Origin: Pseudomonas fluorescens
Lineage (GTDB): Bacteria; Pseudomonadota; Gammaproteobacteria; Pseudomonadales; Pseudomonadaceae
DNA length: 64,000 nt
Assembly: GCF_000968015.1 (NCBI RefSeq)
Contig: NZ_LACH01000002.1
Location: 110,055-174,054, forward strand
Reading direction: 5' to 3'
The notes beneath the pieces were generated by a model. The model saw nothing but the letters and a program-made list of their open reading frames with translations. It ran no database searches and had not been told where the DNA came from. This document shows, in pieces, positions 27,035 through 41,869 of the stretch. Position numbers and translations under genes: made by a program. Position 1 is the stretch's first letter; each line of letters starts with the position of its first letter.

Positions 27035-28333
27035 ATGATGGACGTCACCACTACCCTGAGCCTGGGCGATCCACTGGAACCCGCACGCAAGGCCACCGCG
27101 CAGATGCTGCAAGAGCGCGAGCGTACTTTCTCGCTGCCGCAGCCGTTTTACTCTGACGAGCGGCTGTTTGATATCGACATGCAGGAAATCTTCCAGAAAG
27201 AGTGGTTGATCGCCGGCATGGCCTGCGAAATCCCGACCAAGGGCAACTACCTGACCCTGCAAGTCGGCAAGAACCCGATCATCGTGATTCGCGGCGCCGA
27301 AGGCGTGATCCATGCGTTCCACAACGTCTGCCGTCACCGTGGTTCGCGCCTGTGCACCAGTGAAAAAGGCAAAGTCGCCAAACTGGTCTGCCACTACCAC
27401 CAGTGGACGTACGAACTGGACGGTCGCCTGCTGTTTGCCGGTACCGAGATGGGCGCCGACTTCGACATGAAGGAGTACGGCCTCAAACCGGTAAACGTGA
27501 AGACCGCTGGCGGTTACATCTTCATCAGCCTGTCGGAGAACCCACCGGCCATTGATGACTTCCTGTCGACGCTGAACCATTACATGGAACCGTACGACAT
27601 GGAGAACACCAAGGTGGCGATTACCACCACCTTGATGGAAAAGGCCAACTGGAAACTGGTGCTGGAAAACAACCGCGAGTGCTACCACTGCAACGCATCG
27701 CACCCGGAACTGCTGAAAACCCTGCTGGAATGGGACGACGTCACCGACCCGCGTGCCGACCAGGCTTTCAAGGACCACGTCGCCGCCTCCGCCGCTGCCT
27801 GGGAAGCCGAGAAGATCCCTTACGCCCACGCCAGCTTCGGCCTGCGTAACCGCATCGTGCGCATGCCGCTGCTCAAGGGCACCGTGTCGATGACCCTGGA
27901 CGGCAAACAAGGCTGCGCCAAACTCATGGGCCGGATCAAAAACCCGGACCTGGGCTCGATGCGCATCCTGCACCTGCCGCACTCCTGGAACCACTGCATG
28001 GGCGACCACATCATCGTCTTCACGGTGTGGCCGATCAGCGCGCAGGAAACCATGGTCACCACCAAGTGGATCGTCCACAAGGACGCCGTCGAAGGCGTGG
28101 ACTACGACGTGGAGCGCATGCGCCAGGTCTGGGATGCGACCAACGACCAGGACCGTCGCCTGGCCGAAGAGAACCAGCGCGGCATCAACTCCACGGCTTA
28201 CCAGCCAGGCCCTTACTCCAAGACCTATGAGTTTGGCGTGGTGAACTTCGTGGACTGGTACAGCGAGCGTTTGCTGAGCAACCTGGGCGCGGAACCTGCG
28301 CCTTACCTCAAAGGCGTTCCGGTTCAAGGCTAA
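27035..28333 (+). CDS. gbcA: Glycine betaine demethylase, Rieske oxygenase subunit GbcA
   Basis: A 432-aa ring-hydroxylating-type oxygenase alpha subunit. The Rieske motif is CRHRGSRLC ... CHYHQW (CxH then CxxH) and the mononuclear-iron site is around NNRECYHCNASHPE. It removes one methyl from glycine betaine to give dimethylglycine and formaldehyde. Two ATGs lie in tandem (27035, 27038); GAGGA at 27026 suits the second slightly better. Divergent from its reductase gbcB and expected to be GbdR-activated. The stop codon merges into an AAAAGC repeat. Confidence 0.96.
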   Translation: MMDVTTTLSLGDPLEPARKATAQMLQERERTFSLPQPFYSDERLFDIDMQEIFQKEWLIAGMACEIPTKGNYLTLQVGKNPIIVIRGAEGVIHAFHNVCRHRGSRLCTSEKGKVAKLVCHYHQWTYELDGRLLFAGTEMGADFDMKEYGLKPVNVKTAGGYIFISLSENPPAIDDFLSTLNHYMEPYDMENTKVAITTTLMEKANWKLVLENNRECYHCNASHPELLKTLLEWDDVTDPRADQAFKDHVAASAAAWEAEKIPYAHASFGLRNRIVRMPLLKGTVSMTLDGKQGCAKLMGRIKNPDLGSMRILHLPHSWNHCMGDHIIVFTVWPISAQETMVTTKWIVHKDAVEGVDYDVERMRQVWDATNDQDRRLAEENQRGINSTAYQPGPYSKTYEFGVVNFVDWYSERLLSNLGAEPAPYLKGVPVQG

Positions 28334-28367
28334 AAGCAAAAGCAAAAGCAAAAGCAAAAGCAAAAGC
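28332..28367. repeat. Hexanucleotide tandem repeat (AAAAGC)6
   Basis: Six perfect copies of AAAAGC begin inside the gbcA stop codon (TAA at 28331-28333) and run directly into a REP doublet. Such tracts can vary in copy number by slippage; here that would change only the 3' untranslated region. Confidence 0.95.
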
Positions 28368-28445
28368 ATCGCGAGCAAGCTCGCTCCCACAGGGGATTTG
28401 TGAACAACACAGATCAAATTTGGCAACGAGCTTGCTCGCGATGGC
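28366..28445. repeat. REP doublet with one degenerate arm
   Basis: The left arm is canonical (ATCGCGAGCAAGCTCGCTCCCAC). The right arm is altered at its outer end (TTTGGCAACGAGCTTGCTCGCGAT), with a TTGTGAACAACACAGATCAA centre. Confidence 0.85.
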
Positions 28446-28487
28446 GGTCTACCTTTTATCCTCTCCCTCGCCTACACCCCCTCCTTA

Positions 28488-29117
28488 GATCTGTACGAAA
28501 TATGACCTATTGCGTTCAGGCCTATACGCAACGTGGCTCCCAGCCTTCCGCAAACAACTTATCCACACCTCCACCCACAGCTATTGGGGACAAGTGTGAA
28601 TTTACAGAAAATTTTCTCCACAGAAACCGAAGAAAATCCGTGACTTATCCAGAAGCAGGGTTTTGAACAGCGATTGGTTGTTTTTTGATCGAAAGCTTGA
28701 AAGTCACGTTATACGTGGCTTGCAGAGGATGGCGAACACCTTATCCACAGAAGCGCCAACAGACTTTGGGGGCAACTTGGGCTGATCTGTGGAAAACCGT
28801 TGGAAGCCGCGATAAATCGGGGTTTGCGCGAAGTTTCCCGGTCTAAAACGACGATTTGATCGTTTTTTGATCACAAGCCTGACAGGCCCGGTTTATATGG
28901 CCTGTAGAGGACAGCGAACATCTTATCCACAGATGCGCTAACAGAGATTGGGGGCAAGTATTGGCTCGCGCACAAAGTTATCCTCTGGGAAAAGCCTGAA
29001 AAAACCGCAAGTTAGGCTGGTTGTTTTTTGTACGAAGGGTTGCAGGGCTTGATTTGTATGGGGTGTAGCGATGGGCGAACATGTTATCCACAGAAGCGCT
29101 AACAGGGATTGTGGGTA
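28488..29117. repeat. Non-coding tandem array of four units, each with a perfect DnaA box
   Basis: No convincing gene lies between gbcA and the next stop at 29125. The sequence is four diverged direct repeats. Perfect DnaA boxes (TTATCCACA) lie at 28558-28566, 28740-28748, 28922-28930 and 29083-29091, all on the plus strand, 182, 182 and 161 bp apart. Copies 2-4 share the block GCGAACA-N3-TATCCACAGA, GCGC, AACAG, TTG-GGG and a T-rich GTTTTTTG about 60 bp upstream (28679, 28861, 29022). Single-mismatch boxes lie at 28613, 28644, 28787 (minus) and 29109 (minus). A DnaA-titrating (datA-like) or DARS-like locus is one possibility; a passive repeat is another. Confidence 0.85.
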
Positions 29118-29124
29118 ACCACGC

Positions 29125-30324
29125 TCAGGTCCTGTTGAAACACGACCAGCCCGAGTCGATGTCCAGATTCAACTCATAGTCATTGAATGCCCCCCACCCA
29201 AGCAAAAGCGAAGGCACGTACTGCCCCAGCAACAACGACGGAGGAATCGTAAAGTCCGGGTAGTAGTTGTAGGTGATCCGTTGGATATGTCCCGCCAGGC
29301 TCAATTCCCCCTTGAAGGTTTGGGAGCGCGGTTTATCGGTGACATGAATGGGTGAGTTGCCCGGCGAGGACGACGTCAGGTAATCAACATTGCCGGTGTC
29401 AATAATCGCTGGCGTGGCCCGACGATCCAGGCGTGCGGCAATGGTCAGTCTTTGATTGATGTCGATGCGCGCATAGGTGATTCGCGAATCGCATCGCGCA
29501 GGAGGTTCAGCGTTAACCTCCAGAGTCTTTTTGGTGACCTTCAAGCGCCCCAACTTACCGAGTAAATCGAGCCCCAGTAAGTTTTCCCGGTCGCTGACAA
29601 ACACCAGGACATTTCTGAACTCGCTTGAGCCTATCGTTAAAGACTCAAAGATCCCGAGTTTGGCAGACAGGTCACGTTCACCATAAAACGTGCTGTAGCC
29701 ATAGTGAGAGTCGGTTAAGAAACTGATTCCCATCAGCTTCGCGGTGTCGTGGTTGACCCGGGTTTGCGGTGCGCCGGTGTCCAGAATGAAGCGCGACGAG
29801 ACCCCATTGGCCGCTTTGACATCGAGGTAGGGCAGCACCTCGTCAGTCACGTAACCGTCACTGGCATAGGGGTGAATTGCGAGCACTTCGTGCCGCGTCG
29901 TTCTTTTCACCGAGAAATCGGCGAGCGATCTGAGGGTCGCGAGGGATTCGCTGCCGAACATGGAAAACATTGCGTTGAGCTCAGGGTCATTCGCGATTGC
30001 CTGAGCGTGACGTCGCTTGATCGCCAGATAGTATTCGGGGATCTGGTTTGCGGTTTTGGCCTCGAACATTCGGGCGAGAACAGACACTGAACAATTCAGG
30101 TTTTTTTCAGCATCCAACACGTTGGCGCATTGCTGTTTCAGCTGCGCCAAGGACGCTTTTTGTCCCTGTTCGGACTCTAACCATGTGTAAAAATCCGGAG
30201 CTGCCGGCCGGGTATCAGCTATCGCACTGGTTGCTGCACAGATAAAAAATGCAAGCAGCACCAGAGACGACTTTGAACTCACGCCGCCGATCAGACATGT
30301 CTCACGCCGACTGACCGCTTTCAT
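29125..30324 (-). CDS. Exported retropepsin-like aspartic protease with two DTG motifs
   Basis: A 399-aa protein. An N-terminal hydrophobic signal (SSLVLLAFFICAATSAIA, about 20-37) is followed by a helical region (40-145) and then two aspartyl-protease-type segments: FILDTGAPQTRVN (Asp182) and AIIDTGNVDYLT (Asp309). Hydrophobic-glycine blocks LLGLDLLGKLG and LLLGWGAFNDYELNLD resemble the second conserved motif of retropepsins. Two DTG sites in one chain suggest a self-sufficient bilobal enzyme. ATG 30324 is preferred to an in-frame TTG two codons earlier. The 3' end abuts the DnaA-box array. Confidence 0.75.
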   Translation of the reverse strand: MKAVSRRETCLIGGVSSKSSLVLLAFFICAATSAIADTRPAAPDFYTWLESEQGQKASLAQLKQQCANVLDAEKNLNCSVSVLARMFEAKTANQIPEYYLAIKRRHAQAIANDPELNAMFSMFGSESLATLRSLADFSVKRTTRHEVLAIHPYASDGYVTDEVLPYLDVKAANGVSSRFILDTGAPQTRVNHDTAKLMGISFLTDSHYGYSTFYGERDLSAKLGIFESLTIGSSEFRNVLVFVSDRENLLGLDLLGKLGRLKVTKKTLEVNAEPPARCDSRITYARIDINQRLTIAARLDRRATPAIIDTGNVDYLTSSSPGNSPIHVTDKPRSQTFKGELSLAGHIQRITYNYYPDFTIPPSLLLGQYVPSLLLGWGAFNDYELNLDIDSGWSCFNRT

Positions 30325-30402
30325 GTTCAACCCATTCTGAAAACGAGTTTTATGAACTAGCGCTGCGGCAACCCTGAGCAGCTCATAGAGAAATGTAGCG
30401 CA

Positions 30403-31108: not shown

Positions 31109-31879
31109 CTAGCGGACCACGCCTTCTTCGATCAGTAACTTGAGAATCGCCTCGGCCCCCGCCTCGGCACTCAACCCTTTAAGCACTTGCCCGCCGCCAC
31201 CGCTGGCCTTGGCCGTCGCGGCTTTCATCCGGTCTGCGCCGCTCTTGGCCTTGATCACCTTCAAGCGTTTAGGCCGTGGCTTGGCCGGTTGCAGGGTGGC
31301 GACCGCCAGCAGTTCATCATCGATCACTTCGACTTCATCCGCCTGCAGCACACCGCGTCGGGCTGGGCCGTAGGCACTCTGCCGAGGCTTCGGCGCGGCG
31401 TTATCCACAGTCGCGAGAAACGGCAGTCGCACTTTCAGGCGACGGCGCTGACCGCGCGGCAAGGCTTGCAGCACCAGCGCTGAATTACCGTCGATGGATT
31501 CAACTTGAGCCAGCCCTACCACCAGTGGCCAGCCCAGATTTTCCGCCAGCAGGAACGGCAACATGCCCGAACCTTCACCGGTTTCCGCCTGGCTGCCGGT
31601 CAGCACGACCTGAGCCCCGGCGTCACGCAAATACGCGGTCAATGCCGGCAGTGCATCGGCGCCTTCCGGCTGCTCAAGCACATGCAGCTGTTCCAGGCCC
31701 ATCCCCAGATAGGCGCGTAGTGCAGGTTCTGCGACGTCGCCGGCATGCAGCACTTGCAGGTTATCCCCAGCCAGTTGCAGGCCCAGCTCCACCGCCCGCG
31801 CATCCTGCTCCGCACGACGTGGCCGGCCGGAGGTCGGGTGGGCGCCGATGGACACCAGGCTGATGATTTTCGTGCTCAT
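31109..31879 (-). CDS. etfB: Electron transfer flavoprotein beta subunit, dimethylglycine-cluster type
   Basis: A 256-aa ETF beta-like protein with LVSIGAHPTSGRPRRAEQDA, GMGLEQLHVLEQ, VVLTGSQAETGEGSGMLPF and a C-terminal anchor region. It is divergent from housekeeping EtfB but keeps the AMP/adenosine-binding layout. ATG follows AAAGGATAGGG. It is last in the run dgcA-dgcB-etfA-etfB, so the likely role is accepting electrons from DgcAB; that is inferred from position. Confidence 0.9.
   Translation of the reverse strand: MSTKIISLVSIGAHPTSGRPRRAEQDARAVELGLQLAGDNLQVLHAGDVAEPALRAYLGMGLEQLHVLEQPEGADALPALTAYLRDAGAQVVLTGSQAETGEGSGMLPFLLAENLGWPLVVGLAQVESIDGNSALVLQALPRGQRRRLKVRLPFLATVDNAAPKPRQSAYGPARRGVLQADEVEVIDDELLAVATLQPAKPRPKRLKVIKAKSGADRMKAATAKASGGGGQVLKGLSAEAGAEAILKLLIEEGVVR
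31402..31410 (+). promoter_or_regulatory. DnaA-box sequence inside etfB
   Basis: A perfect TTATCCACA. Other perfect copies outside the array are at 32351-32359 (minus), 32610-32618, 35222-35230 and 41457-41465 (minus). Inside genes the match partly follows Val-Asp-Asn codons, so binding is not implied. Confidence 0.4.
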
Positions 31880-31894
31880 AACCCTATCCTTTCC

Positions 31895-33115
31895 TTAAGC
31901 CGCATCGCGCTTGGCTTCGTTGCGGTAAGCCTCTACCGCATCGATCAAGGCTTGAAGAATCTCTGCACTCTCGCCGATCACCGACAGGTCGGCCCGTTTG
32001 ATCATGTCGCAGCCAGGATCGAGGTTGATCGCCACCACCTTGTCGCAGGCACCGATGCCTTGCAGGTGCTGGATCGCCCCGGAAATCCCCACCGCCACGT
32101 AAACCCGCGCGGTGACCCAGGTGCCGGACGCACCGACCTGACGGTCGCGCGCCATGAAGCCATCGTCCACCGCCACACGGGACGCGCCTTCGGTAGCGCC
32201 CAGCGCTTCGGCGGTCCTGTGGAAAAGTCCCCAGTCCTTGACCCCGTTGCCGCCGGAGAAGATGAACTCGGCTTCGGCCATCGGAATCGCCGCCGGGTCC
32301 ACTGCCACGGCGCCCAAATCCTCGATGCGCGACAAACTGCGCGCCACGGCTGTGGATAACTCCACCGGCAAGGCTTCGTGACGGGTTTCGCTGACCGGTT
32401 CGGCGCATTCGACGGCAGCCAGAATCAAGCGTGCCACCGGGCGCGCAAGGTCCTGCAAACCGGCACCGGCGCGACCGATGCATTCCTGATCCTTGACCTG
32501 CCAGACCCTTGTAGCCGGGCGTTCGCCCAGTGCGGCGGCAAAGCGTCGACCCAATTCACCACCGCCGCTGCGACTGTCCGGCAGCAGCCAGTGACGCGGG
32601 CTGAACTGGTTATCCACAGCCCGCAGGCCCTGGACCCGTTGTTCCGGTGCATAACCGCTGAATTCGTCGCCATCCAGCACCAGCAAGCGATCGACGCCAG
32701 CGGTGGCGAAGGCGTTTTCTTTATGTTCACCGAAGACCACGGCCAATACAGCGCCGTCCTTGCCAGCCAACTGGTGAGCCAGGCCGAGCAAGTCGCGGTC
32801 GTGGCTGCTCAAGCGGCCGCCGACCATGTCCGGCACCACACTGATGTAAAACGCAGGTGCAGGCACTTGATGCAGTGGCAACTGGACTTCAACCGCGGCC
32901 GAGCGTTTAGTCGCCCCGCCCTGTTGAGCGCCGCTGCGGTCGATCCGTTTGATCCCGTTGGGACCAATAAAACCGATGCCGTGAGGATTTTTGCGGATGA
33001 CGCCGTTAGGCCCCATCCAGCTGTGTTGCGCCGGTTGCATGGCCGCGTGCAGCGGGTGCAGACGGTTGCGGGCGATCCATTCGGCGCGTGGGTCGCGGCG
33101 GATAATGTCGCTCAT
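31895..33115 (-). CDS. etfA: Electron transfer flavoprotein alpha subunit, dimethylglycine-cluster type
   Basis: A 406-aa FAD-binding ETF alpha. A long N-terminal extension (about 1-75, MGPNGVIRKNPHGIGFIGPN) precedes the alpha/beta domain. The C-terminal FAD site includes SGGNGVKDWGLFHRTAEALG, QVGASGTWVTARVYVAVGISGAIQHLQGI and AINLDPGCDMIKRAD. The start overlaps the dgcB stop (TGATG). It should shuttle electrons from dimethylglycine oxidation to the quinone pool. Confidence 0.93.
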   Translation of the reverse strand: MSDIIRRDPRAEWIARNRLHPLHAAMQPAQHSWMGPNGVIRKNPHGIGFIGPNGIKRIDRSGAQQGGATKRSAAVEVQLPLHQVPAPAFYISVVPDMVGGRLSSHDRDLLGLAHQLAGKDGAVLAVVFGEHKENAFATAGVDRLLVLDGDEFSGYAPEQRVQGLRAVDNQFSPRHWLLPDSRSGGGELGRRFAAALGERPATRVWQVKDQECIGRAGAGLQDLARPVARLILAAVECAEPVSETRHEALPVELSTAVARSLSRIEDLGAVAVDPAAIPMAEAEFIFSGGNGVKDWGLFHRTAEALGATEGASRVAVDDGFMARDRQVGASGTWVTARVYVAVGISGAIQHLQGIGACDKVVAINLDPGCDMIKRADLSVIGESAEILQALIDAVEAYRNEAKRDAA

Positions 33116-35220: not shown

Positions 35221-35235
35221 GTTATCCACAAGCTC

Positions 35236-40909: not shown

Positions 40910-41869
40910 TCAGACCAGTTCCCGGCCATCTCCCAAACGCCGCCGGTCTTCCCGCGGACACCGCTCAAACCGCGCCCGATAGCTGCGGGTGAAATACGAC
41001 GGCGACTCAAACCCGCACGCAATACTCACTTCCAACACACTCATATCCGTCTGCCGCAACAACTGCCGCGCTTTCTCCAGCCGCAGGCGCAGGTAGAAAT
41101 TGCTCGGCGTGTCGTGCAAATGCAGCCGAAACAATCGCTCGAGCTGCCGTCGCGTGACTTTGATCGATTCGGCCAATTCCAGCGTGCTCAGCGGCGGTTC
41201 GCTGTGCTGCTCCATCTCGCCAATCACATGCACCAGTTTCTTGTTGCTGATGCCATAACGCGTGGCGACTTCCATGCGTTGGTGGTCTTTGCGCGGGCGG
41301 ATGCGACCGAGCACGAATTGTTCGCTGACCTGGATCGCCAGTTCCGGGCCGTGGGCCTGGCTGATGAGGTCGAGCATCAGGTCGATGGAAGCGGTGCCGC
41401 CGGCGGAGGTAATGCGTCGACGGTCGATCTCGAACAGCTCCTGGGTAACGCTGAGCTGTGGATAAGACTCCTTGAACGCGTCGATGGCTTCCCAGTGCAG
41501 GGTCAAGCGGTGGCCGTCGAGCAGGCCGGCCTCGGCGAGGATGAAGCTGCCGGTGTCGATGGCGCCGAGGGTCACGCATTCGTTGTCCAGCCGGCGCAAC
41601 CAGTGCTCCAGCGCGGGGGTAGCGAATTTCAAGGGTTCGAAGCCGGCGACCACTAACAAGGTTGCACCTTTCTTCAGCGGTTCGAGCGCGGCATCGGCGT
41701 TGACCGACATGCCGTTGCTGGCCAACACCGCCCCGCCGTCCGCGCTGAGCACATGCCAGCGATACAGCTCGCCACGAAAGCGATTGGCGACCCGCAGCGG
41801 CTCGATGGCCGAGATAAATCCAATCGCCGAGAAACCCGGCATCAACAAGAAGTAGAAATCCTGGGACAT
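40910..41869 (-). CDS. cdhR: Carnitine-responsive transcriptional activator CdhR (GATase1-like/AraC)
   Basis: A 319-aa regulator: N-terminal DJ-1/GATase-like ligand domain (about 5-190, GAIDTGSFILAEAGLLDGH) and C-terminal AraC helix-turn-helix pair (IKVTRRQLERLFRLH, VLEVSIACGFESPSYFTRSY). It is divergent from caiX, the arrangement of CdhR in P. aeruginosa, where it activates carnitine genes. The start is set at MSQDFYFLLMPGF; upstream in-frame codons extend by 26 unconserved residues. Confidence 0.93.
   Translation of the reverse strand: MSQDFYFLLMPGFSAIGFISAIEPLRVANRFRGELYRWHVLSADGGAVLASNGMSVNADAALEPLKKGATLLVVAGFEPLKFATPALEHWLRRLDNECVTLGAIDTGSFILAEAGLLDGHRLTLHWEAIDAFKESYPQLSVTQELFEIDRRRITSAGGTASIDLMLDLISQAHGPELAIQVSEQFVLGRIRPRKDHQRMEVATRYGISNKKLVHVIGEMEQHSEPPLSTLELAESIKVTRRQLERLFRLHLHDTPSNFYLRLRLEKARQLLRQTDMSVLEVSIACGFESPSYFTRSYRARFERCPREDRRRLGDGRELV

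Follow-up and report, generated by a model that had tools for sequence, protein, structure and literature searches.

Why does the Pseudomonas fluorescens chromosome carry a tandem array of DnaA boxes in the gap beside gbcA, and could the array act on DnaA itself? The window analysed here is a stretch of 64,000 nucleotides (NZ_LACH01000002.1, positions 110,055 to 174,054). A preliminary description of this DNA had reported four exact TTATCCACA boxes in one orientation, spaced by 182, 182 and 161 bp, with four one-mismatch boxes between them. We found all four exact boxes on the + strand at these spacings (Table 1). The one-mismatch boxes were also present (28614 +, 28645 +, 28788 − and 29110 −), the entire window holding 15 such sites. 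In dinucleotide shuffles of the window, TTATCCACA is expected 0.08 times (s.d. 0.27), in agreement with the earlier estimate of less than one. The actual count is nine, which was reached in none of 100 shuffles; the five further copies lie at 35222 (+), at 41457 (−) and within etfA and etfB (Table 1). In the genome as a whole, TTATCCACA occurs 152 times and the reversed pattern 25 times. The gap is indeed non-coding, with only mechanical ORFs between the end of gbcA (28333) and the aspartyl-protease-like gene. The blocks said to be shared by the boxes correspond to two repeat families, one of 102 nt (28674, 28856 and 29017; copies 71–79% identical to the first) and one of 46 nt (four copies, 63–76% identity). 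Directly 3′ of gbcA are tandem AAAAGC hexamers (28332–28368), followed by a 36-bp imperfect palindrome (CGCGAGCAAGCTCGC..., 28367–28443) that is presumably a Pseudomonas REP-like element.

The repeats are part of a larger order. Each of the four boxes is part of a composite unit of ≈ 110 bp, in which a 15-bp Fis-like dyad (offset −65 or −66), a GC-rich conserved site, the DnaA box and an inverted weak box (offset +26) follow one another at fixed offsets. The coordinates are listed in Table 1. The Fis consensus GNNYANNNNNTRNNC, as quoted in the available text of PMC4585315, is strictly matched in 0 of the 4 window units. A T-rich GTTTTTTG block had been placed about 60 bp upstream of each box; it is present at boxes 2–4 but not at box 1, where the version has diverged, and it turned out to be one half of the Fis-like dyad. 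The GC-rich site has the consensus CTGNAGGCC-N11-GGCCTGCAG and is imperfect as a dyad, 3–6 of 9 arm positions pairing in the window.

Table 1. Positions of genes, DnaA boxes and composite-unit sites in the window.
Feature	Position	Strand	Comment
gbcA, Rieske oxygenase	27035–28333	+	
Aspartyl-protease-like gene	29125–30330	−	
Composite unit 1	28490–28597	+	R1 63.3 bits; most diverged
Composite unit 2	28673–28779	+	R1 76.6 bits
Composite unit 3	28855–28960	+	R1 71.8 bits
Composite unit 4	29016–29120	+	R1 65.2 bits
Fis-like dyad, unit 1 (−66)	28493–28507		one letter off GNNYANNNNNTRNNC
Fis-like dyad, unit 2 (−65)	28676–28690		one letter off GNNYANNNNNTRNNC
Fis-like dyad, unit 3 (−65)	28858–28872		one letter off GNNYANNNNNTRNNC
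Fis-like dyad, unit 4 (−65)	29019–29033		one letter off GNNYANNNNNTRNNC
GC-rich conserved site, unit 2	28697–28725		6/9 arm positions pair
GC-rich conserved site, unit 3	28879–28907		4/9 arm positions pair in this register
GC-rich conserved site, unit 4	29040–29068		4/9 arm positions pair
DnaA box 1, TTATCCACA	28559–28567	+	
DnaA box 2, TTATCCACA	28741–28749	+	
DnaA box 3, TTATCCACA	28923–28931	+	
DnaA box 4, TTATCCACA	29084–29092	+	
Inverted weak DnaA box, unit 1 (+26)	28585–28593	−	2 mismatches
Inverted weak DnaA box, unit 2 (+26)	28767–28775	−	3 mismatches
Inverted weak DnaA box, unit 3 (+26)	28949–28957	−	3 mismatches
Inverted DnaA box, unit 4 (+26)	29110–29118	−	1 mismatch
One-mismatch DnaA box TTTTCCACA, between units 2 and 3	28788–28796	−	kept in genus alignment
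DnaA box in etfB, antisense	31401–31409	+	possible outlying member
DnaA box in etfA CDS, codons TTA TCC ACA	32351–32359	−	identical in 19/21 loci; possible outlying member
DnaA box in etfA, antisense	32610–32618	+	possible outlying member

To describe the unit beyond the window, we started from 336 perfect boxes; 218 were selected, and these gave 108 non-redundant units. Of the 108, 61 come from array loci of the genus, and 66 were used in A1 and in the sequence-only profile R1. At −65/−66, the strict GNNYANNNNNTRNNC pattern was found in 37 of the 108 and a relaxed pattern of our own in 86. The inverted box lay exactly at +26 with no more than two mismatches in 57, the next-best offset averaging 5.5 mismatches. 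Box and inverted box together are the most conserved part of the unit in the genus. A check for a three-box DARS core gave a best direct third box, at +12, that averaged 4.1 mismatches. The IHF consensus WATCAANNNNTTR, searched as a consensus only, was found in none of the 108 units, and in the array not even at one mismatch. Because the 108 units had been selected partly by their flanks, we retested the flanking sites on 30 boxes from other genera chosen by spacing alone (15 of the 17 loci L071–L087; L076 and L078 were dropped by a position filter). The relaxed Fis-like motif occurred at −65 in seven of these and twice in sum over 178 other offsets, and the inverted box (up to three mismatches) at +26 in 14, any other offset having at most two. 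The Fis-like motif was thus absent from 23 of the 30 boxes and the inverted box from 16; ten boxes of loci L080–L084 had neither.

The GC-rich site showed no covariation, its pairing staying within 0.08 of the expectation from base composition at the 16 position pairs tested; the site therefore fits a protein-binding site and not a hairpin. Rfam returned no match at E values up to 1 for 28000–29600. The absent covariation and the lack of an Rfam match led us to rule out a hairpin or RNA reading.

The array is conserved among relatives; a lack of conservation would, according to the preliminary description, have refuted its reading. A BLASTN search with 28488–29130 gave matches in 47 of the 59 genomes sampled from the genus, of which the weaker cover only parts of the query. 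Among the 12 genomes without a match, four (G003, G012, G014 and G041) have units that the profile detects. All 30 loci taken from the best matches (30 of the 47 matching genomes supplied loci) retain four or more exact boxes in the same orientation, and the alignment consists of conserved blocks rather than of uniform similarity. In L013, L014, L017–L019, L024, L030 and others, an extra exact box lies on the opposite strand, 145–146 bp upstream of box 1; these loci, from several species, had no gbcA detected next to the array.

The neighbours are less constant: each of gbcA, the protease-like gene, a GNAT gene and etfB is adjacent at some loci only while the array stays, and units at other loci flank unrelated genes. 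This bears on the idea that the array is a DnaA-regulated promoter or terminator of neighbouring genes. DnaA can act as a transcription factor, according to the available text of PMC8203912. However, gbcA and the protease-like gene are convergent, so that neither promoter lies in the array gap. A search of 28300–29200 detected no sigma-70-like promoter, a weak test since shuffles average only 0.6. On these two grounds we rejected the promoter reading, and regulation of neighbouring genes in general appears improbable.

The sense DnaA box inside the etfA coding sequence is conserved at synonymous sites. The window's etfA has 33 leucine codons, of which the one in this box is the sole TTA. Related though the loci are, the retention of so rare a codon suggests that the DnaA box itself is under selection. 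If so, the DnaA-binding region would extend to about 4 kb.

How widespread is the unit? Two boxes in the same orientation 164–194 bp apart occur in 73 of 148 genomes of the family, compared with 0 of 148 for the reversed control. Using R1 at E ≤ 1e-6, we detected units in 142 of the 148 genomes and in 18 of 19 genera, with 1 to 25 units per genome. The sole sampled genus without a unit at this threshold is g13 (G070, G086, G098 and G110), possibly a natural loss useful for comparison. The small-genome relatives of g18 (L076, L077 and L079) have dense unit arrays, many at a spacing of 112 bp. In the genome of the window itself there are 14 matches at E ≤ 0.01, of which 11 score at least 45 bits and the other three 19–25 bits. 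Hence the array, first described as a lone cluster, represents four of 11 strong copies; another two are 37 kb distant, and three other contigs hold the remaining five. No plasmid relative of the array was matched. One contig scan gave seven matching records, P. aeruginosa not among them; P. nitroreducens (two records), P. nicosulfuronedens, P. pseudonitroreducens and three further Pseudomonas records have two or three units each. At E ≤ 0.001, R1 matched 118 of the 145 genomes sampled from the order and also 81 of the 200 sampled from the phylum, 62 of them outside the order (where there are at most 178 such genomes) and many only partially. Since the phylum sample matches so widely, weak matches beyond the family are noisy and we limit our claim to the family. 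Stronger matches beyond it (G340, G241 and G234, > 45 bits; three on the same strand of G220 contig 61, 38.6–39.4 bits within 1.5 kb) hint at older roots of the unit.

The array had been supposed to lie close to oriC. It is not next to it: among the 18 genomes for which both positions were available, the distance from dnaA is 0.33–0.65 Mb in 17 and 1.1 Mb in G029, so that "origin-proximal" for the array means about 0.5 Mb. We mapped all units of at least 35 bits, a cutoff applied to every map, in ten closed genomes of the genus; they were taken from the single-contig assemblies among the 22 genomes in which dnaA had been located. The strong units lay at 0.36–0.99 Mb from dnaA, on both replichores, in 105 of 108 cases; the three exceptions scored 35.6–37.9 bits. 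Most of these units (83 of 108) are oriented towards the origin. The map omitted seven other single-contig genomes, including G029, whose array was known beforehand to lie 1.1 Mb from dnaA. Among the 63 units listed from 13 other genomes (two of them of g15; best matches listed only, G012 and G014 being without a listed row), there were four exceptions, three in G029 (−0.69 to −0.73) and one in G023 (0.86). In five genomes of two other genera, all 79 units were within half a replichore; left-hand distances in G085 are 19 kb shorter with the true chromosome size than as mapped. Conserved intergenic DNA may, however, be biased towards the origin anyway.

The dnaA loci themselves lack the unit. 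None of full length was found at 17 of them in the genus (flanks of up to 1.5 kb) or at L001, the best partial match scoring 14.8 bits. In P. aeruginosa, a second autonomously replicating fragment, "oriC2", has reportedly been described (Yee and Smith in 1990, Jiang et al. in 2006), and the array might be a related alternative origin: it combines DnaA boxes with T-rich blocks and has a GC content of 0.48 compared with 0.60 for the window. Yet GC skew, computed within the window in 4-kb steps, does not switch across the array. Together with the repetition of units at several loci on both replichores and their absence from the dnaA-linked regions, this makes an alternative origin very improbable.

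In the ten closed genomes, strong units occupy five recurring loci, not each in every genome. Three genomes of a P. nitroreducens-type genus share seven positions (≈ −0.4, −0.25, −0.17, −0.05, +0.05, +0.17 and +0.27 of the replichore), and each of the five loci has one to three neighbour genes in common with one of the seven in G081. The locus of the window array (about −0.17; +0.12 and +0.18 in two genomes) pairs with the one at about −0.05, which has gbcB or threonine aldolase alongside. A pair of units at about −0.18 corresponds to +0.17, and the locus at about −0.27, with histone-deacetylase-like and HI0933-like neighbours, to +0.27. On the other replichore, a pair of units about 370 bp apart (about +0.20) corresponds to −0.25 and the locus at about +0.25 to +0.05. 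Some of these pairings rest on one common neighbour gene. The replichore has been switched at three of the five paired loci and the distance changed at two. A kept distance with a switched side is on its own no proof of selection for distance, since inversions around oriC have the same effect and two loci moved. Exact DnaA boxes are missing from the units at the gbc locus of G081, G133 and G178 and at +0.17 in G081. In the gbc-locus units (L170, L186 and L187) the Fis-like and GC-rich sites are kept, and near-boxes such as TTTTCCACA or TTGTCCACA replace TTATCCACA.

These comparisons also bear on whether the unit is simply a dispersed repeat of the REP or MITE kind that contains a DnaA box by chance. 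Such a repeat would explain multiple copies per genome, located mostly between long ORFs at the loci examined. It is hard to reconcile with copies that diverge outside the sites, with loci that share neighbours between genera and with a map in which nearly all copies fall in the origin half. We regard this explanation as scarcely credible.

The spacing of the units may reflect a structural constraint. In the genus, distances between units fall mainly at 150, 159–161, 171–172, 181–183 and 193 bp, about one helical turn apart; spacings of 167 bp (L065) and 169 bp (L064) at other loci are off phase. On 12 distinct spacings of 140–200 bp (128, 333 and 365 bp being outside this range), helical phasing gave p ≈ 0.002; the spacings are not independent by descent and the statistics are weak because the lineages are related. 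In three genomes of the P. nitroreducens-type genus, seven of the eight unit alignments shown for the gbc locus have 11 extra nucleotides, again about one turn, between box and inverted box. The spacing steps and the insertion suggest that the bound proteins must share one face of the DNA.

We think it rather likely, judging from the sequence comparisons, that the array belongs to a set of composite-unit clusters which flank the origin and act on the availability of DnaA. Fis would bind and bend the DNA at the upstream dyad, a protein X would bind the GC-rich site, and DnaA would occupy the strong box and, through cooperative binding, its weaker inverted partner at +26. A DnaA complex could then form across several units that share a helical face. 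Most copies in the genus lie ≈ 0.15–0.28 of the way to the terminus, so that passage of the two forks would double them shortly after initiation. More DnaA could then be titrated or inactivated, and early re-initiation would be prevented. To our knowledge, pseudomonads have no SeqA/Dam sequestration. Because the sites would be doubled soon after initiation, a titrating or inactivating role is favoured; we give a datA-like negative role a little less than an even chance, and a DARS-like reactivating role seems doubtful. Either way, the units probably help to time chromosome replication. Units also occur much closer to the origin elsewhere: two mapped genomes of g12 have seven or eight closely packed units ≈ 41–50 kb from dnaA (including L188, G172:C1:6004500-6011500), and G099 has one at 22 kb. 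A single fixed delay therefore does not fit all of them.

The units could instead be sites of chromosome organisation or segregation that mark or tether the origin region, Fis and a binder of the GC-rich site being the actors and DnaA a recruited partner. In the mapped genomes of the genus they lie to either side of the origin, units without an exact box occur at some loci of the second genus, and the third conserved site is absent from the parts of datA and DARS described in the available texts. P. aeruginosa moreover has a 1.4-Mb "Ori region", the positioning mechanism of which is unknown according to the available text of PMC3642087. Against this, the box and its inverted partner are the most conserved part of the unit in the genus, and the etfA box at rare codons points to DnaA. 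We know of no organiser site, parS and matS included, that resembles the GC-rich site. On balance, a role in organisation is unlikely.

Taking the action on DnaA availability further, the units may belong to a family-wide system of replication control, in which DnaA–Fis–X units, set at recurring loci to either side of oriC, would report fork progress and reset DnaA activity, and may also delimit the Ori region. We put this forward tentatively, as a proposal that is less likely than not. In the titles and abstracts covered (subscription papers were outside the scope), the unit was not described. The units are defined, deletable and conserved sites with a position rule and a candidate protein-binding site. 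DnaA control outside Escherichia coli and Bacillus subtilis thereby becomes directly testable. The units bear on once-per-cycle initiation in pseudomonads and may bear on the Ori region of P. aeruginosa.

Finally, we compared the array with known systems. P. aeruginosa oriC2, judged by citations only, resembles the array in being an additional DnaA-related region on the chromosome of a Pseudomonas; it differs in that origin activity of the array is not indicated by the window skew. For the DnaA-box clusters of B. subtilis and Streptomyces, we know of no report of a composite unit in which a Fis-like dyad and a further site sit at fixed offsets. These clusters are, like the array, intergenic and outside oriC (PMC4451416 and PMC10950094, available text). 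The preliminary description had proposed a role like that of E. coli datA or DARS. Of the readings considered, a conserved array of DnaA boxes acting in this way has the best support; the IHF feature is lacking, and for this reason we do not class the array as a plain datA or DARS2. The datA locus, which acts in DDAH, is a non-coding cluster of DnaA boxes ≈ 0.5 Mb from oriC in which the spacing of sites matters (PMC4585315, PMC10950094 and PMC4451416, the last giving > 450 kb; available text), and relocation of datA- or DARS-type regions perturbs initiation (PMC5010248, in the part available). However, datA, which promotes hydrolysis of DnaA-ATP, is a single locus that needs an IHF site between essential DnaA boxes, whereas the array has no IHF consensus, carries a Fis-like dyad and a GC-rich site in every unit, and has counterparts in several clusters on both replichores. 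DARS1 and DARS2 convert ADP-DnaA to ATP-DnaA by nucleotide exchange. Like the array, DARS2 is non-coding; it joins DnaA boxes to Fis sites, keeps its relative position on the chromosome and depends on Fis and IHF (PMC4585315, available text); for the array, Fis binding is a prediction. DARS2 has further boxes beside the three-box core that it shares with DARS1, and needs IHF, whereas the unit described here has one strong and one inverted weak box and is repeated in tandem and at several loci.
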